Of a stretch of DNA of 64,000 nucleotides, positions 32,552 through 43,057 are shown one piece after another; the first letter of the stretch is position 1; each line of letters starts with the position of its first letter. This DNA is from Flammula alnicola (lineage: Eukaryota; Basidiomycota; Agaricomycetes; Agaricales; Strophariaceae), in NCBI GenBank assembly GCA_015499995.1, contig JADNRV010000200.1, forward strand, positions 1-64,000. The letters are read 5' to 3'. Below the pieces are notes generated by a model that saw only the letters and a program-made list of their open reading frames with translations, made no database searches and had not been told where the DNA came from. The position numbers were made by a program, and so were the translations under genes.

Positions 32552-33758
32552 ATGTCCCAGTGGGTGAGGGTGGATGACTGGGATAGCGGCATACACTATT
32601 CCGGACAATGGGTTGACAGTCAGATTAACACTGGATCCGGTGACGGGACCGATGAAACATATTTGCAAGATGCATTCCAAGGGACTGGACATTATATGAA
32701 TCCCATTGATAGCAGTCCATCGAATCTATCATTCGCTTTTAATGGTGAGTACACTTTAATTCTCTGTAGAGCGATTGTCCTAGAATCTGAACAGGAATCG
32801 ACTCACAGGTTCCGCGGTAGCGCTCTATGGCATGTTTGCTGCACTTAACGCTTCCGGGGACCCGATTCCATCTTGGGAGTGTTTCATTGATGGGGAGAGC
32901 ATCGCGGCCAATAGGGCATTTGGGCAATTTCCATGGCAAAGTTATTGCGAAAAGGATGGACTGGACGACGGGCCGCATACTCTTACCGCTAATATTCGAT
33001 ATAAAAACTTCGATATCCACAACGCAACAGCTGCAGCCGAATTTTGGCTGGACTTCATCCAATACATTCCGAGCGCCTCTGCAATCACTTCGCTCCTCCC
33101 ATCCTTACCCTATTTCTTTGTTGATTCGACGGATCCACGGCTTCAGTATCAGGGAGATTGGGAGCCGTTCGGTACAGCGAATATGACGCTGGCTGCCAAT
33201 GCATCATTCTTCTTGGATTTCAGTGGTATTGATCCTGGCTTCATCCTGTTGTAGGCTGCATATATCTGACTTGATTGATATTTAACAGGTCAGTCCCTCG
33301 CCTGGTACAGTCTCTCGACGAGTTCAGTCCTCAACACAAATGAAACGATATTCCCGGACGGTATTGACATATTGCGCGCCCCAACCACGTGCCAATACTT
33401 CGTTGATGGAATATCTCCTGTGCATTTCACTGCCTCAACAGCCTCCATAACTTCTACCTATAACCACATATCATTTCAGACTAGTTTACTCCCGCCGGGC
33501 CAGCACAACATCACTGTCCAGTGCTATGCAGTAGGACAACCATTCACTCTGGACTACCTCATAATTCAAAGCGGTACTTCACTTTCTGAAAATGCTTCGA
33601 CTGGAACCTCGACTACCTCACCCTCAACCAGTGGACCCCCGATTCCGAGACCGAGCGGAAATGTCGACATTGGCGCTATCGTGGGAGGAATAGTCGGCAG
33701 TACGCTGCTAATCATCCTTCTCATATTTTTCGTCCTCCGCCACCGCATCAAGCGCTAG
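32552..33758 (+). pseudogene. Membrane protein TM-P3, 5' part, truncated by a transposon
   Basis: Exons 32552-32744, 32809-33225 and 33289-33758. The ectodomain matches TM-P1 closely ('PSWECFIDGESIAANRAF', 'FWLDFIQYIPS', 'SLAWYSLSTSS', 'LDYLIIQSG'), then comes a transmembrane helix (TLLIILLIFFVL). The frame ends after 'RHRIKR' in a TAG whose bases are the first bases of the inserted element. The lost cytosolic tail lies 6.7 kb away at 40471-41225. The truncated frame could still make a 359-residue tail-less membrane protein, so a residual product is possible, but relative to its paralogues the gene is broken. Confidence 0.85.
33747..33755 (+). repeat. Left 9 bp direct repeat (probable target-site duplication)
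   Basis: ATCAAGCGC, the last TM-P3 codons (Ile-Lys-Arg) before the transposon. The same nine bases recur immediately after the right terminus at 40471, followed by the rest of the TM-P3 tail. Confidence 0.85.
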
Positions 33759-33824
33759 TCTCCCGTAGTCAGACTATTAAATTCGTGACTTTTGTTGTTT
33801 ATGATAGAGTCACTCATATATAGT

Positions 33825-34688
33825 CAGGCTCCTAAACCATCCTCTCGTTCGAGAATCCTCTTCATATAGGGTAGATAGGATGTTATCTAATCTTTGTTAT
33901 CTAAGGACAAATAAATGACAACAGAACTTACGATGGGGATTCTCGATAGAGAGGCTGGCCTATTTTGGATTCGGTGATCTCGGGCATACCTTCTAACACC
34001 CAACGTAGGGTTTATGTTTAGTAGATTCAACTTCATTATATTTTGATGTGTCAGCACATATCAACAGACGTTCGCGTCAATACTATCACGTGTCGGGTGT
34101 TTAAAAATCGAGAATATCAGAGAATATCTCAACGGCTACTCAACCTACAGGCTTGAAATTTGGCACGAATATTTTAGTATGCACCTTAAGTGCCTCTGAG
34201 AAGTTTCATGCTTTTTGAGTGAGGCCACGCAGCACTAGGGCAGAAATAGGCCTTTTTTGACACATCTTTCATGAATGGCAGAGTCAAAACCTAAGAAATC
34301 TGCCCCGTAATTTTATGAGAGGTCCAAATACATTCCTAGAATATATATAACCTGGTTTTATTGTCATTATTATGCCAATGAACCTCCTGGGCAAGCAGAA
34401 TGTGGCTGGTCTCCTTTTCCGGATGTGACCAAACGGTGACCTTTGGTGATTGATGTGCTGACACATCAAAATATAATGAAGTTGAATCTACTAAACATAA
34501 ACCCTACGTTGGGTGTTAGAAGGTATGCCCGAGATCACCGAATCCAAAATAGGCCAGCCTCTCTATCGAGAATCCCCCATCGTAAGTTCTGTTGTCATTT
34601 ATTTGTCCTTAGATAACAAAGATTAGATAACATCCTATCTACCCTATATGAAGAGGATTCTCGAACGAGAGGATGGTTTAGGAGCCTG
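33825..34688. mobile_element. Long-TIR MITE nested at the left end of the transposon
   Basis: Two arms of about 235 bp (33825-34059 and 34453-34688) are nearly perfect reverse complements, with about 390 bp between. The ends read CAGGCTCC...GGAGCCTG, and both flanks are the same 9 bp, ATATATAGT (33816-33824 and 34689-34697). Long arms plus a 9 bp duplication fit a Mutator-like MITE; the CAGG start would also fit hAT. No coding capacity. Near-identity of the arms points to a recent insertion. Confidence 0.9.
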
Positions 34689-34693
34689 ATATA

Positions 34694-34748
34694 TAGTCTG
34701 ATTTGACGCGCGGTGGTCAACCCGTAGCTCGATTTTGCGTCACGTGTA
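34694..34748 (+). repeat. Left inner terminal inverted repeat of the DUF6589 transposon
   Basis: Begins TAGTCTG and includes CCGTAGCTCGATTTTGCGTC and CACGTGTA. It pairs imperfectly with 40416-40470 in reverse complement. Its first bases overlap the MITE target duplication. Confidence 0.8.
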
Positions 34749-34778
34749 ATATCCCGTTATGGTAATGGGTCAGAATCG

Positions 34779-37700
34779 ATGCCTCATTTCGTTATCTCTC
34801 ACACCATGTCATCGAGCAACCATGTCTTTCGTGGTACTCCTCAGACCACCCCCGGTCCCAAATCCTCTCGTTACAGCTTGCCAACCACTCCATACCCCCC
34901 TGCACCATTCCAACCATCCACTCCTTCCACGGCTACCTATCAGTTCACGATGTCAACTCCTGGCAATTACTTCAACGAGACACCAAATTTTGGCGCTTCG
35001 GGATCTCGGACATCGAAGCGCAAGTTCGACGACAAGGAAAATGTCCCTCTGCCCTTCTTCTCGCTGACTGGAACACCACAACCCCCGAAAAAGAAGAAGA
35101 AAAAGCCCGCCGCCTTCAACGACATCCCTGTGCCGCAGTCAATTGCCGAAAAACTCGATTTGATTTACGATGCCATCCAGCACGCCGGATGGGCATTAGG
35201 CCACTTCCAGTACTTCGCATTCGCGACAAAGGACGAGGACGGCAACAAACTCAGTCGATCAAAGCGGCACAGCGGGTTCGCTTCAACATTTCTGCAGGGC
35301 AAAGGAACGTACACGCCAGCGATGGTGCTTCAATTGTGGCAGGAAGGTCCAGATGGCAGGGCAGTTGCAGGATCGTCAGAGGATGCACTCATGTACTCTA
35401 CAACGGTACCGTATTTTCAAATGCATATTGCTCGTGTTGCGCTCTCTGCCTTTGCAGCTCAGATTGTTGAAAAGAAACTCGTGAAGGAAGCAAGGGAAGC
35501 TGTTAAAACGACAAGTGGACTTCATGCTACGTCAAAGAAACGGGCCACCGAACGCATGGAATGGGCAGATATTGGTGCAGCCACTGTGGCTCGCGTCGCG
35601 GGGGTTATCCAAAAGTACCAGCCACTTACTTGGGTGTATGTTAATCGGATTGCTGGATGCAATGGCAAACAATCCGAGGACACAGAAAAGAAACGACGGC
35701 CGACAGAAACAGTGCGTTTATTTCGTCCAGAATAAATGCTGTTAACTGAACTCCTTTTCAGGTCGCCACACATGCAATCTCGACGTTGAATTTCACACGC
35801 AATAACGAAGCTCGTCTTCTTCCCCTCGCGCGTGGTCTCCTGTACTTCGCGTTCTCTGCTCCAGCCGATCTCATGGCGTATGGAAGCCGGATTGGTGATA
35901 TGCCCGCCTACAGCACTGTTCAAAACGCTCTGAAGGGCCTCGCCATCCACGAAAGCCGGGTTACCGCAGATCATGCATCCGATCTCCAGAAATGGGGCTC
36001 GCTCCAACTCGACAATGTGCAGAACTATCACCGAGTGCGAGATGCCTGCATAGGCCGGAGCAATAAGATGAACATTGGCACTGCTGGAATCTACTGCGAG
36101 CTCGGTGACGACATTGACCTCACGGCGGCTGATTTGGACGACAAACGTCGACGAGTTGCGGAGAACAAGCGCGCCAATGTTTCCGTTGATGACCTACTTG
36201 CCATGATCGACCAAACCCACCTCGATACAGTCTTTTCTCTCCACTGGCTACGCGTCCTCATTAACAGCATTCCGGCGTTGGAAAAGTGGAAGCCACATTT
36301 GGCAATGCTGTTTAAAGAGAAGGCTACGAAGCTACAGCTACCAGCAAAAGCCACGAAGGTCCATCCTCTCGCATCAAATGGCAAGAATGAGACGATCACG
36401 ACAGAGCTCAAAGACTGCATGTTCGATTTTCTCGGGCAGATGGGACAAAAGGATGGCAATTACGCGCGGCGGTTGGTCATTGCTGGCGGTGATGGATTGA
36501 CATTCCAGAAGATGATCGAGCTCCAGCGCTATCTGCAGTTCCACAAGGACCCCTTCCAAAGTCTCGAAATTCTCGAACCTGTGCTTTCGTTATGGCATAC
36601 AGAGTGGACAGATGTCAGCCGGATCTTCGAGACCCATTGGGATGGTCTGTTGAGCAGTGATCCTTCCTCTATCGGCCATAGCGCTGCTCATATCAATCGC
36701 TCGGAGCCTTCTAACCTAAAGAAGGTGGATTATGATGCAGCCTCTGCACTTATGTATCTGGTTCTCGAGGTCCGAATGTTGGACTGTTGGCGGTATGTCT
36801 CACACTATTTCAGACATAAGATAGCTACTAATAAGCTACCTCTCTATTCCAGGAACCATTTCGAGTGCCAGGATCTCTTTCTGCACTTTCAGAAGCTCGC
36901 TGTGGATGACAAGTCACCTGACATTGAAGACCTATTACTCAGTGCACGCAAACTCCACCGCGCCTTCTCGAGCACCCGCGCAATATATTTTGCCCTGAGT
37001 GACACGACTTCCAGCACCGAATGGTCCAATTCTGTGCCACTTGGCCCAGCCTGGATAAAGGACGACGACCCTCCTACCAACGCCATCGATGCAATTTTGA
37101 CTGCAGATCCCACGAAGAAGGCCAAAAGCTCAAAAAAGAAACCGCCTGTCTTTGTCCGCCATCCGAACGGTGATCGAGTACTCGCCAACTCTATCACTTT
37201 CATGCGTGATGCCCTCACTTCACGTGAAATGTCTTACGCCATTGCCAACGGCGATGTTGGTCGTGTATATGAAATCATGAAAGTATGTGTTCCTTTCACA
37301 GCTTATGTCTTTGGCAAAATCTCACGGACTTCCAGATCTTGTTATTCACGTTCTCGGGCTCAAGTCACACAAAGTACTCAAGCTATCTACTCGAAACAAT
37401 CTGTCGCCTTGAGCTAGAATCTAGCCCTTCTCTCCGTGAAGCTATCCTGAAGACAACCATTGTCAACCTTTCAGGGCGTGCAGGTTCGTTTTCGGCAGCC
37501 GACTTGATCCAGGAATTCTTCAATCGCCTGCTGGAAGCCATCGTCGAGAAGAAAGGAGTCGAATATGGCAATACATTCATCCGAGACGTGGTCTCTCGCA
37601 ACCTACACCACTTTGCACGTATCAAGCTTGATTTACGTGCAGGCGTCGGACTTTCGAAACGCAGCGGGCGTCATACCGCGCCTCATCTCAACCCCGAAAT

Positions 37701-38109
37701 CAGGACATTGCTGGATGTATACCTTGACTGCAAACTTCACCACCGCTGTCCTGGCCGCGTTTACGACAACAAGGACAAGGACAACTTTCAACACGGGGTT
37801 ATCAAACTCCGCGGAGGTAAGTTAAAAAAGTGGATTTTCGACACGACAAATACGCGAGGCATTCAATCGAAGGGGATGTCCAGTTCAACACCTAATGACG
37901 AGCCAGATAGTGACATGTCAGAGGACGAGGAACCTGAAGACGACATCGAATCACCGCCACTTGCATCACTCGCTCCGATCGCTTATCGTGAAATAATTGA
38001 CGGAGAACTTGTTCTTGGGACTTTCGATGTTCTGGAAGACGTCGACACGTGGATTTCGGAACTGGCCAAAGATATTGAACCATCAGACGATGAGATGGAT
38101 GTAGATTGA
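34779..38109 (+). CDS. DUF6589-family protein, candidate transposase
   Basis: Four exons (34779-35711, 35762-36792, 36853-37282, 37336-38109) give about 1055 residues; an in-frame ATG at 34806 is an alternative start. The first 100 residues are Ser/Thr/Pro-rich with a Lys run (KKKKKK), plausibly a nuclear localisation signal. The DUF6589 core has 'LQLDNVQNYHRVRD' (Asp about 395) and 'IAGGDGLTFQKMIELQRYLQ' (Asp about 555). These are spaced like the first two catalytic Asp of an RNase H-fold transposase, with an acidic 'LEILEPVLSLWHTEW' block after. The C-terminus is acidic. I recall DUF6589 as a family expanded in basidiomycete genomes. The transposase role here is inferred from the TIRs, direct repeats and these motifs, not proven. 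Confidence 0.75.
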
Positions 38110-38128
38110 CACGGTAAATGTATGATCT

Positions 38129-40264
38129 CTATTCTACGATGGTGATGTTTCCGTTTCTGACATTTATTTTCCAGATGATCGATGTAGATGGTGTTTTTTC
38201 GGATGGTGCTGGGAGTGTAGACTCTGAATCAGGTTCTTTGAGGTCCTCGCAAAGGTCCGCAGTGACATTTTCGGTTGGCTCGGTTGTGCGTTCGATTCCT
38301 TTTTTCTTCGCTGTGGCTTCTGTTCGCATGATATTAAATTGCTCGCGCAGGTTTTTGCACAGGATCAAGAGGTCGCCTTTGTATGGAACCAAATACTTCT
38401 TTTGCGCAGCAATGTTATCGAGATCATGCAATTCTTGAATTGAGTAGATCTGATCTATTATGCTTTTGATTGTCTCGTCTGGTAGAAAGGCCTGAGGAGG
38501 GAAAAAGCCATGTGTTTGCGATGACGCGTTGCTGAATAATAGCCATCGGAAACCCTCCAATTCAGTTTTCGCTTTTTCGCGCATTTCCTTGCTGATTCCT
38601 TCGCCTCGCTTGGCTCTATGTGCTGTAGCTGGTCCAGCTTCTGTGCCAGTATTTGTCTCGGGAGCTGGCTCGGAGGTGGTTTGCGATGGCGGGCAACACT
38701 TGACTCCGTTGCATGTGCACTTTTTGGGTCGATGAACAGGGGGAGTTTCTTGGCAGATAGAACACAGGCAAGGGATATCTTTGGTCGGATTTTGATATAT
38801 ATTGTCAAGGAAGGTGTTTTTGCACTCTGCGAGAAGTAAGAGTGCGATGCTGACATCCATTTTATCTTCTTCTTTAGTCTTGTCGCTTCTCTTCTTTCCG
38901 ATGGTGGCAGATGCTTCTAGAATGCTATTTGCCTCGATCTCGATGCCTTCACGTGCTGCAACTCTATGTGCCGTCGCCAGAGCTGTTTGGGTGTAGTATA
39001 AGAAGCCTCGAGGATGGGGAACAGCCTTTTGATTGCGGCCAACACGCCCAATCTTCTGGACAAACTCGTCGATGTCTGAGGGCTCGCCGATAATAACAGC
39101 ATCTCGTGTGTATTTGCTGTCCCATCCGACACTGAGAACATCTGTTGCAATCGTTATTGATGCTGGATTTCCACCAGCATTCAATAGATCAAGCGTGTCA
39201 GAATTGTATGAAGGCCAATTTAGGGAGTTAAAGAGCCGTATCCGTTTATCGAGGCCAAGGAGACCTTTTTCGCTGGCTCGCTTCCAAAGATAGCTGGCGA
39301 CACGGAATCCTAGGCTGATGGTTTTGCAGAAAATAACAGTATGTTCTCCCTCATCGAGAATCCAGTCCAACTCGGGGAACTTATTGCCTCCTATCCCAGA
39401 TTTCATCTGGCGGAAGATTAACTGGATGTCGTGACGCATATTGGTGCGTCGTAGAATGCTGTATTTGCCTTCTTTGAGCCCAAGGGTCTCGCAAACATAT
39501 TCTGTTATTGGCCCAGGTCGCAATGTAGCACTGGTTCCGAGGATTTGGATAGGTTGTCCTTCTCTTGTTGGCAGACGAGCGCGAACAAGACCGATTTGAC
39601 GAAAGCAGGGGCGGAAGGACTTTCCCCACCAATGGAGAAGATGTATTTCATCGATTCCAAACATGGATATGCGAGCCGTGAAGTCTTTTTGCTCGAGAAG
39701 GCGTCCAAACTCTGCGGACTGGAGTTCTTCAGGAGACAAAAGGAGCATTGTCGGCACTTCCTTTGCTTCAGCCCATAAGTCAACCTTTTGCGCCCTTGCT
39801 ATTGTTGATGTATCTGAATTGATAACCAGTGTCTTGAGGCCAAATCCGACCATGTTTCTTCTCTGCCGGTTCAATGTTATCTTATTAGATCATGGAAGAA
39901 TAGTCAGTAAAATATTGCTTACCATATCTTCTTGTAATGCTTTTGTCGGACATATAAGTAACATACAAGGGTTTTTGGAGAATTTCCGTTCTCCAAGACA
40001 GAGAGAGGGATCTTCTGCCAGGGCAGATATGACCAGCATCAGGAAACTATAAAACCCTGTCTTTCCTGTACCTGTGGCCATTGTTACCAGGAGATCACCT
40101 CCGTCTAAGGCCTTCCCGATCCCTTCACATTGATAGTCGTGGGGCTGAATGGGCCGCGGTTTACATTGCTGAAGAATTTCACGAATTAAGACATGCCCTA
40201 GGGGTGTGTCATATATGGCTTGAGAGCGGAGAGGGCCTTCTGGGAGATTATTTGGGGGAGGCAT
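38129..40264 (-). CDS. Superfamily 2 DNA helicase (RecQ/DEAD-like) carried by the transposon
   Basis: Two exons (40264-39923 and 39880-38129) give 697 residues. Walker A is 'ATGTGKTG' (about 63-70), motif II is 'DEIH' (191-194), and motif III is like 'LGTSATLRPG'. The C-terminal RecA-like half has 'TVIFCKTISLGFRVASYLW', 'TIATDVLSVGWD' and 'VQKIGRVGR' (arginine finger region). A Cys-rich block 'CLCSICQE...CTCNGVKCC' follows, possibly zinc-binding. The order resembles RecQ-type helicases without a clear HRDC domain. It is convergent with the DUF6589 gene, 19 bp apart. It may assist transposition or repair of the donor site; this is inference. Confidence 0.85.
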
Positions 40265-40415
40265 GATGTTAGAAGACGATAAGATCGATCAGATAATAAA
40301 ATTTGTCTAAGATACATGCTTGCGATCACTCTAGGACTGCAAATTTGAATACTCATTCGCGTTAATTAAAGACCGCGTCGGCGTTATTTGGTTTGGATTG
40401 GCACATCACATGAAA

Positions 40416-40470
40416 TACACGTGACTCAAAATTGAGCTACGGTTCCGACCCCCTACGTAGAAACAGACTA
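40416..40470 (-). repeat. Right terminal inverted repeat of the DUF6589 transposon
   Basis: Ends CAGACTA. In reverse complement it shares TAGTCTG, CCGTAGCTCAATTTTGAGTC and ACGTGTA with 34694-34748. Confidence 0.85.
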
Positions 40471-40479
40471 ATCAAGCGC
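40471..40479 (+). repeat. Right 9 bp direct repeat (probable target-site duplication)
   Basis: ATCAAGCGC, identical to 33747-33755. It resumes the TM-P3 coding sequence with GAAGGACAC. Confidence 0.85.
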
Positions 40480-41225
40480 GAAGGACACAATCAAGCCTCC
40501 GCGGACGTATCTGGTTTAAGAACCCACATCGAACCTTTCCGAGATACCCTAGACAACAAAACGGGCGCCCTCAAATTTGATGCAGCCCGCCCATCCAGAA
40601 TGTCATCACCCCTTTCGTCGATGCCGAGGAAAAGTCAGCTGTCTCCGATTCCCTCTCGTCTGGCCCTACATCCTTCCAACGTTCGCTCCTCCACCTACGT
40701 GCTGGAGCCTCGTCCATTCAAAATATCATCGACCCGTTCACAGAACCCGACGCCCAGGAAAAGTCAGCCGTCCCCAACTCCGACCTCTTGTCTGGCACTG
40801 TCTCCTCACCACGGCTATATATCCATCTGCGTGCTAGAGCCTCATCCATCCAAAATATCATTGAACCGTTCATAGACCCGCAGGATGAAAAAGCGACGGA
40901 TATTAACCCATACCGGGATCCAGTGCCGCTGAACACGAACATGAACGAATCACAAACTACCACCGCACGCCCGCCGCTCGAATCGAATAACGACGCGATC
41001 GACGCTCAAATGAATTTATCGACGGACCGAACTCATGAAAGCGAAGCCGATGCAATCCAAGGAATTGGAGGACGAGAACTACCTCAGGGACCCCCAGTTC
41101 TTTCTTCAAGCAATAATCGCCAACCTTCGAGGATTGTGAGACACGCAGATAGCGGAGCGCGCCTGCCACAAATTGAAGAATCAGATGAAGTCTTGGAGTT
41201 GCCTCCCGAGTACACGGTTGAATGA
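40471..41225 (+). pseudogene. TM-P3 cytosolic tail, separated from its gene by the transposon
   Basis: Encodes the tail missing from TM-P3. Short repeats around '(I/V)(I/D/T)PF(V/I/T)(D/E)' appear: HIEPFRD, VITPFVD, IIDPFTE, IIEPFID. The longer unit 'SSIQNII(D/E)PF' with 'EKSAV' is repeated. The end is 'RHADSGARLP' ... 'LPPEYTVE', matching the TM-P1 and TM-P2 C-termini. A frame change between about 40550 and 40610 separates the first PF motif from the rest, so even without the transposon the tail would need one correction or an unseen intron. No promoter or start codon of its own is evident. Confidence 0.8.

Positions 41226-41491: not shown

Positions 41492-43057
<1,566 letters not shown>

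Follow-up and report, generated by a model that had tools for sequence, protein, structure and literature searches.

A 64,000-bp window of the genome of the agaric Flammula alnicola (contig JADNRV010000200.1 of assembly GCA_015499995.1, 74.4 Mb; designated G000:C114:1-64000) carries a 6,715-bp DNA transposon at 33756..40470. It interrupts a membrane-protein gene and holds two genes, one encoding a protein with the domain DUF6589 and the other a RecQ-like helicase of superfamily 2 (SF2). We read it as an element of the AcademH type, probably once autonomous, in which the DUF6589 protein would be a DDE transposase and the helicase its partner (probability roughly 0.85). It is a real transposon, of a kind already described. 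Beyond this, DUF6589 gains a probable role, the frequency with which the two genes are paired is measured, one family appears to have been active recently, and the element ends show a regular structure that may be new.

Borders of the element and the gene it interrupts

An exact 9-bp target-site duplication (TSD), ATCAAGCGC, lies at 33747..33755 and again at 40471..40479, directly outside the element. The frame of the membrane-protein gene is intact on the forward strand over 33279..33755, meets a stop codon at the very start of the insert (TAG, 33756-33758) and has its tail resuming at 40480. When the flanks were fused via a single copy of ATCAAGCGC, this frame continued, in frame. An insert-free copy on C846 (L070), which is a paralogue and not an allele, aligned across the junction with small gaps (73 and 81% identity in two pieces, 78% by another comparison). 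This paralogue was taken as the empty-site comparison because a closer copy of the region is unusable: C110:27502-27874 is 96-98% identical, but some 0.9 kb surrounding the insertion site is missing from it, and with the site lost it is uninformative on the empty allele. The original prediction, which drew these borders from the 9-bp repeat and from the broken frame of the interrupted gene (its TM-P3), placed them correctly. A third copy of ATCAAGCGC occurs at 42678, beyond the borders, and a Flammula protein of 226 aa (P0200) matches the first half of the interrupted gene at 97% identity.

From left to right the element consists of a TAGTCT tip, a split palindrome, the inner arm of an inverted repeat, the DUF6589 gene, a 19-bp gap, the oppositely oriented helicase gene, and the right terminal inverted repeat (TIR). 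Two tail-to-tail genes had been expected between inverted ends, and the genes are indeed convergent. The 55-bp imperfect inverted repeat proposed for the ends is real, its arms being 75% identical, and is terminal at the right (40416..40470, reverse strand, reading TAGTCTG... inward); its left arm (34694..34748, forward strand) lies away from the left border. A second proposal, that the 19 bp between the two stop codons form a shared terminator zone and a fixed feature, did not hold. The stops abut (0 bp) in L011, the copy that was read of a 5,208-bp family described below, and they are 300-2,000 bp apart in eight other loci, by a naive count of open reading frame ends in loci of which several are degraded. 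Judged by its helicase half, the family of the window element is single-copy in the genome.

A DUF6589 gene that travels with a helicase gene

The DUF6589 gene (34806..38109, forward strand; 1,046 aa) has predicted exons at 34806-35711, 35762-36792, 36853-37282 and 37336-38109; its introns, like that of the helicase gene, were predicted from sequence alone. All 120 relatives listed, of 159 found, carry DUF6589, and the names shown for them use such terms as hypothetical, uncharacterized or DUF6589-domain. Pfam labels the family (PF20231) as being of unknown function. The fold, computed for an Amanita relative (P0001, 60% identical) in place of the spliced window protein, is predicted to be DDE-like and matches DDE enzymes. 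The proposal that the acids of 'LDN' and 'GGDGLT' belong to an RNase H-like nuclease agrees with this predicted fold and with the conservation of the acids. The candidate catalytic residues in the window protein are D386 (codon 36011..36013; LDN motif, strand beta1), D546 (36491..36493; GGDGLT, after strand beta4) and, as a more tentative assignment, E849 (37513..37515), in a DLxQE helix that follows a helical insertion and in which D845 is also conserved. The catalytic glutamate is thus probably about 300 residues past GGDGLT, behind an insertion that the model shows as mostly helical. The Pfam match in the window protein begins at residue 437, past the first candidate aspartate, and this is perhaps one reason why the family has gone unrecognised as a transposase. 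From the modelled fold and the company that the gene keeps, DUF6589 is very likely the transposase of this transposon group.

A search of PDB sequences with the DUF6589 protein gave no match at E<=1, and a literature search by term returned no mention of DUF6589, the term PF20231 matching just an unrelated optics paper. Both results would suit a different reading, in which the element represents a separate DDE superfamily that gained a RecQ-like helicase independently of AcademH. However, a helicase, a TSD of 9-10 bp and a host in the Basidiomycota together make up the AcademH set, and it is less probable that another, unrelated superfamily would combine all of these. We therefore consider an independent superfamily unlikely and retain the AcademH assignment.

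The helicase gene (complement(38129..40264), 691 aa, with a predicted intron at 39863-39922) encodes the Pfam domains DEAD (E=4e-15) and Helicase_C (E=2e-6). Its best NCBIfam match is the RecQ family TIGR00614 (E=7e-19; 67.9 bits, below the cut-off of 219.8), and its best PDB sequence matches are to RecQ1. Behind the core, within 38129-39862 on the reverse strand, there is a cysteine-rich stretch (CLCSICQE...CTCNGVKCC) without a Pfam match. RecQ proteins have a zinc domain at that position, after the helicase core.

The two genes are paired well beyond this locus. Searching the genome with the DUF6589 model gave 74 matches, merged by hand into at least 36 loci (a lower bound), most of them in families other than that of the window element; the model had no match in 14 control genomes. 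A search with the window helicase gave 29 matches at 28 loci, and 19 of these were <6 kb from a DUF6589 locus, compared to 0.2 expected from chance placement (this is also 19 of the 36 DUF6589 loci). Fifteen pairs are convergent and four divergent; for the head-to-head pairs (C112, C113 and two on C261) element ends were not found. Of the nine unpaired helicase loci, four (L044, L048, L051 and L060) are short derivatives that have TAGTCT ends and are flanked by 9-bp TSDs. No helicase had at first been called at three DUF6589 loci (C201, C223 and C323:54616), which turned out to be copies of a single element, and in the C201 copy (L011) a convergent helicase frame was read (Helicase_C, E=1.7e-13). 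The count of 19 is consequently too low, because the helicase of these copies is too divergent for the query.

The pairing recurs in other fungi. Among the homologues listed (120 of 159 DUF6589 relatives were compared, with about 8,000 candidates scored per search), 26 of 79 helicase homologues share a contig of identical size and a source label with a DUF6589 homologue; for helicase homologues with fungal names the figure is 25 of 48. Seven pairs have consecutive locus numbers, for example BN946_scf185013.g159/.g160 and NLJ89_g10800/g10801. Across the 26 pairs, the helicase and DUF6589 distance matrices are correlated (r=0.77; 0 of 2,000 permutations). Two Agrocybe pairs are 0.72 (helicase) and 0.60 (DUF6589) apart, while one of them and a Pholiota pair differ by 0.41 and 0.41. 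As the Agrocybe pairs are further from one another than one of them is from a Pholiota pair, the correlated divergence goes beyond what the species tree alone would give. Co-location, correlated divergence, TSD-flanked relatives and the DDE-like predicted fold all bear out the original suggestion that these two genes form the coding set of a group of transposons. The presence of the helicase neighbour would thereby be explained, and with a probable transposase role for a large family labelled as of unknown function, genome annotations could be put right.

Ends, a nested element and a palindrome near the tip

To delimit relatives, we screened 37 stretches for TAGTC...GACTA end pairs flanked by repeats of 9 or 10 bp with at most one mismatch. 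Seven of 365 pairs had such repeats, all of them exact 9-mers (0.0014 exact expected). These TAGTCT loci (C243, C323:75272, C623:54304, C279, C443, C335 and C334) fall into three families; in the family of C623:54304 and C323:75272 the second tip is TAGTCC. Among 259 CAGRCT pairs, including the window, three combined 9-bp repeats with at least 16 of 30 TIR matches: C623:76441-82237, C667 and a nested element in the window. Exact 9-bp TSDs are therefore present in the window element, the nested element, seven TAGTCT relatives and two CAGRCT relatives. The elements have TIRs, which are imperfect and, in the window, offset at the left end. Of 13 two-gene stretches of at least 6 kb, six have TSD-bounded ends (the window, C279, C443, C335, C623 and C667). 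The other seven yielded no such pair, C64 (L066) having its DUF6589-side end alone. TSD pairs with matching tips were looked for without success at C545 (L064), C64, C323:308500 (L068), C779, C112, C113 and C261.

The cleanest case is a further family with three copies at different sites (C201:144282-149489, C223:363089-368296 and C323:53379-58586; L011-L013), each 5,208 bp long by its end positions. Over the 3,940 bp compared, two copies match the third at 99.87 and 99.90% identity, the identity begins exactly at TAGTCT, and the TSDs are GGAAGGGGT (9 bp), TCCGTTGCG (9 bp) and CAAGCACC (8 bp). This family is likely active. On C131, C852 and C445, paired matches to its ends point to shorter derivatives. 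On C443 (L069, 2144-7043) the helicase-side end seems to contain a second TAGTCTCGGACC end, 13 nt from the tip, which resembles the end of the 5,208-bp family and is perhaps a further nested insertion.

The window transposon itself contains a second element, absent from the original prediction. This is a nonautonomous element of 864 bp (33825..34688) with CAGGCTCC tips (CAGGCTCCTAA...) and near-perfect inverted arms of about 235 bp, flanked by the 9-bp TSD ATATATAGT at 33816..33824 and 34689..34697. A full-length copy at C324:12382-13242 has a reported identity of 100% (861 versus 862 bases), which indicates that the nested family moved recently; partial copies are many (58 aligned segments, its own arms counted). 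Its first bases match the tips of the 5,717-bp DUF6589-plus-helicase element on C667 (9-bp TSD), with a one-base length difference. A nonautonomous element of one helicase-transposon subgroup thus sits inside a member of another.

At the left, DUF6589-side tip of the window element (33756..33824, forward strand) the TAGTCT cap is followed by a palindrome (score 13, p about 0.001). Arm 1 is at 33769-33790 and arm 2, split by the nested element, at 33808-33824 plus 34698-34701; the nested element was passed over and its flanks joined for scoring. In all ends arm 1 was sought within nt 11-36, and scores were compared with 1,000 mononucleotide shuffles. Four TAGTCT families (window, C335, C279 and the C623 family) share the order TAGTCT plus 5-8 nt, palindrome and TIR body at the DUF6589-side end, and TAGTCT directly followed by TIR body at the other. 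The palindrome had p values of 0.001-0.002 at the DUF6589 side in all four, compared to 0.11-0.95 at the opposite end. In the two gene-carrying CAGRCT elements and in the nested element it is present at either end (p 0.001-0.009), with the proviso that C667 and the nested element resemble each other in their tips and are perhaps not independent. In the eighth family, that of C201, it is present at the DUF6589 side (p 0.011) and is probably two-sided, since the other end is 87% identical over 118 bp. A palindrome near the tip was thus found in eight of eight families scored, with arm 1 starting at nt 11-15 in each. Scores were 10-18; among 1,425 background windows across loci, which may contain ends themselves, 33 reached 10 and four reached 13.

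Folding with DNA parameters gave a similar picture. For the DUF6589-side ends of eight TSD-bounded TAGTCT elements, of which those in the same family are not independent, 0-6 of 400 shuffles folded as low, with the window the weakest. The opposite ends were unremarkable in six of the eight (55-153 of 400) and low in C279 (24 of 400) and C443 (4 of 400), the latter value apparently owing to another inserted end. The palindrome arms vary between families, yet pair beyond the fixed CAGAC/GTCTG outer pairs. The raw genome count of a loose palindrome pattern was uninformative (14 matches versus 16 in the reversed control), and the weight of this pattern rests on the 14 matched sequences themselves, from two related families; a specific pattern had 11 matches versus none in the control.

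A hairpin near a tip, together with a helicase gene, recalls Helitrons, whose 3' end has a hairpin close to the tip. Helitrons make no TSD and use an HUH Rep nuclease. If the element were Helitron-like or otherwise helicase-driven, the 9-bp repeats would have to be accidental, but TSDs occur in several independent copies, the ends are inverted repeats and the predicted fold is DDE-like; Pfam scans of the window DUF6589 and helicase proteins gave no match to a Rep domain. The TSDs and the transposase fold contradict such a reading, which we regard as extremely improbable, and a DDE transposon of the AcademH type is again preferred.

Proposed mechanism and comparison with known systems

In the mechanism that we propose, the DUF6589 protein, with an RNase H-like core and a long helical insertion, would bind TAGTCTG-type ends, excise the element and join it to the target with a 9-bp stagger, and this stagger would account for the 9-bp duplications. 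The travelling helicase may serve in opening or resolving either the ends or the gaps left after insertion, and the palindrome, which begins 11-15 nt from the tip, could be a recognition signal or a hairpin-forming one. A bolder version, which we hold to be doubtful, makes the palindrome the defining working part: the helicase melts the end, a hairpin or cruciform forms, and the DDE enzyme acts on it. If so, ends would be chosen by structure as well as by sequence, the one-sided TAGTCT families would have functionally different ends (compare the 12/23 pairing of RAG), and movement would be coupled to the helicase instead of being plain cut-and-paste. The palindrome is possibly a useful clue to how the elements move, and the end structure and the recently active-looking 5,208-bp family together offer a testable system for asking why a DDE transposon needs a helicase.

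What do known DDE transposons have in common with this element? CMC and Transib transposases have CxxC between the second D and the last E. An H(3-4)H motif is shown in a passage of PMC12730594. In our alignment CxxC was present in 0 of 44 sequences between D523 and E823, and CMC and Transib were rejected on this motif. A C/DxxH motif in the same position is ascribed to hAT, P, MuDR, Kolobok and Dada in a passage of PMC9587614; it occurred in at most 4 of the 44 sequences at any column, and hAT, P and MuDR were rejected as well. The C/DxxH count presupposes that E823 is the last acid. For hAT, a passage of PMC12730594 gives TSDs of usually 8 bp. The hAT element Hermes and the P element differ from the window family, in which their C/DxxH is not conserved. 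Neither is known to have a helicase partner.

KolobokH is a Kolobok lineage of fungi; PMC9587614 describes it as a DDD/E transposon that has a RecQ helicase, as here. The same source gives Kolobok TTAA TSDs of 4 bp along with C/DxxH. The TSDs found here all measure 8-9 bp, with no TTAA among them, which contradicts KolobokH, as does the lack of a conserved C/DxxH; we consider it very improbable. In Pfam, the window transposase gene belongs to PF20231 (E=2e-132), with the label and the late start of the match given above.

AcademH was compared with the window element by its description, and the element agrees with it in each feature so compared. The type was reportedly described by Kojima in 2020 (Mob DNA 11:15). 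TIRs are general for the Academ superfamily; in the window element they are present, if imperfect. A passage of PMC10045372 gives TSDs of 9 or 10 bp for AcademH and of 3 or 4 bp for AcademX, and connects this with helicase and nuclease. A passage of PMC10799480 reports AcademH at low copy number in Basidiomycota, Ascomycota and Mucoromycota, and both papers cite Kojima 2020 for it. Academ is listed among the DDD/E superfamilies in PMC9587614, and in another agaric, Marasmius oreades, putative nonautonomous Academ elements are said in PMC8290104 to be widespread. The window element resembles AcademH in its SF2 helicase, its 9-bp TSD and its basidiomycete host, in a transposase that is DDD/E by prediction, and in low copy number in an agaric, its family being single-copy by the helicase half. 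The name AcademH, as we apply it by analogy, follows from the helicase and the TSD size reported for that type.

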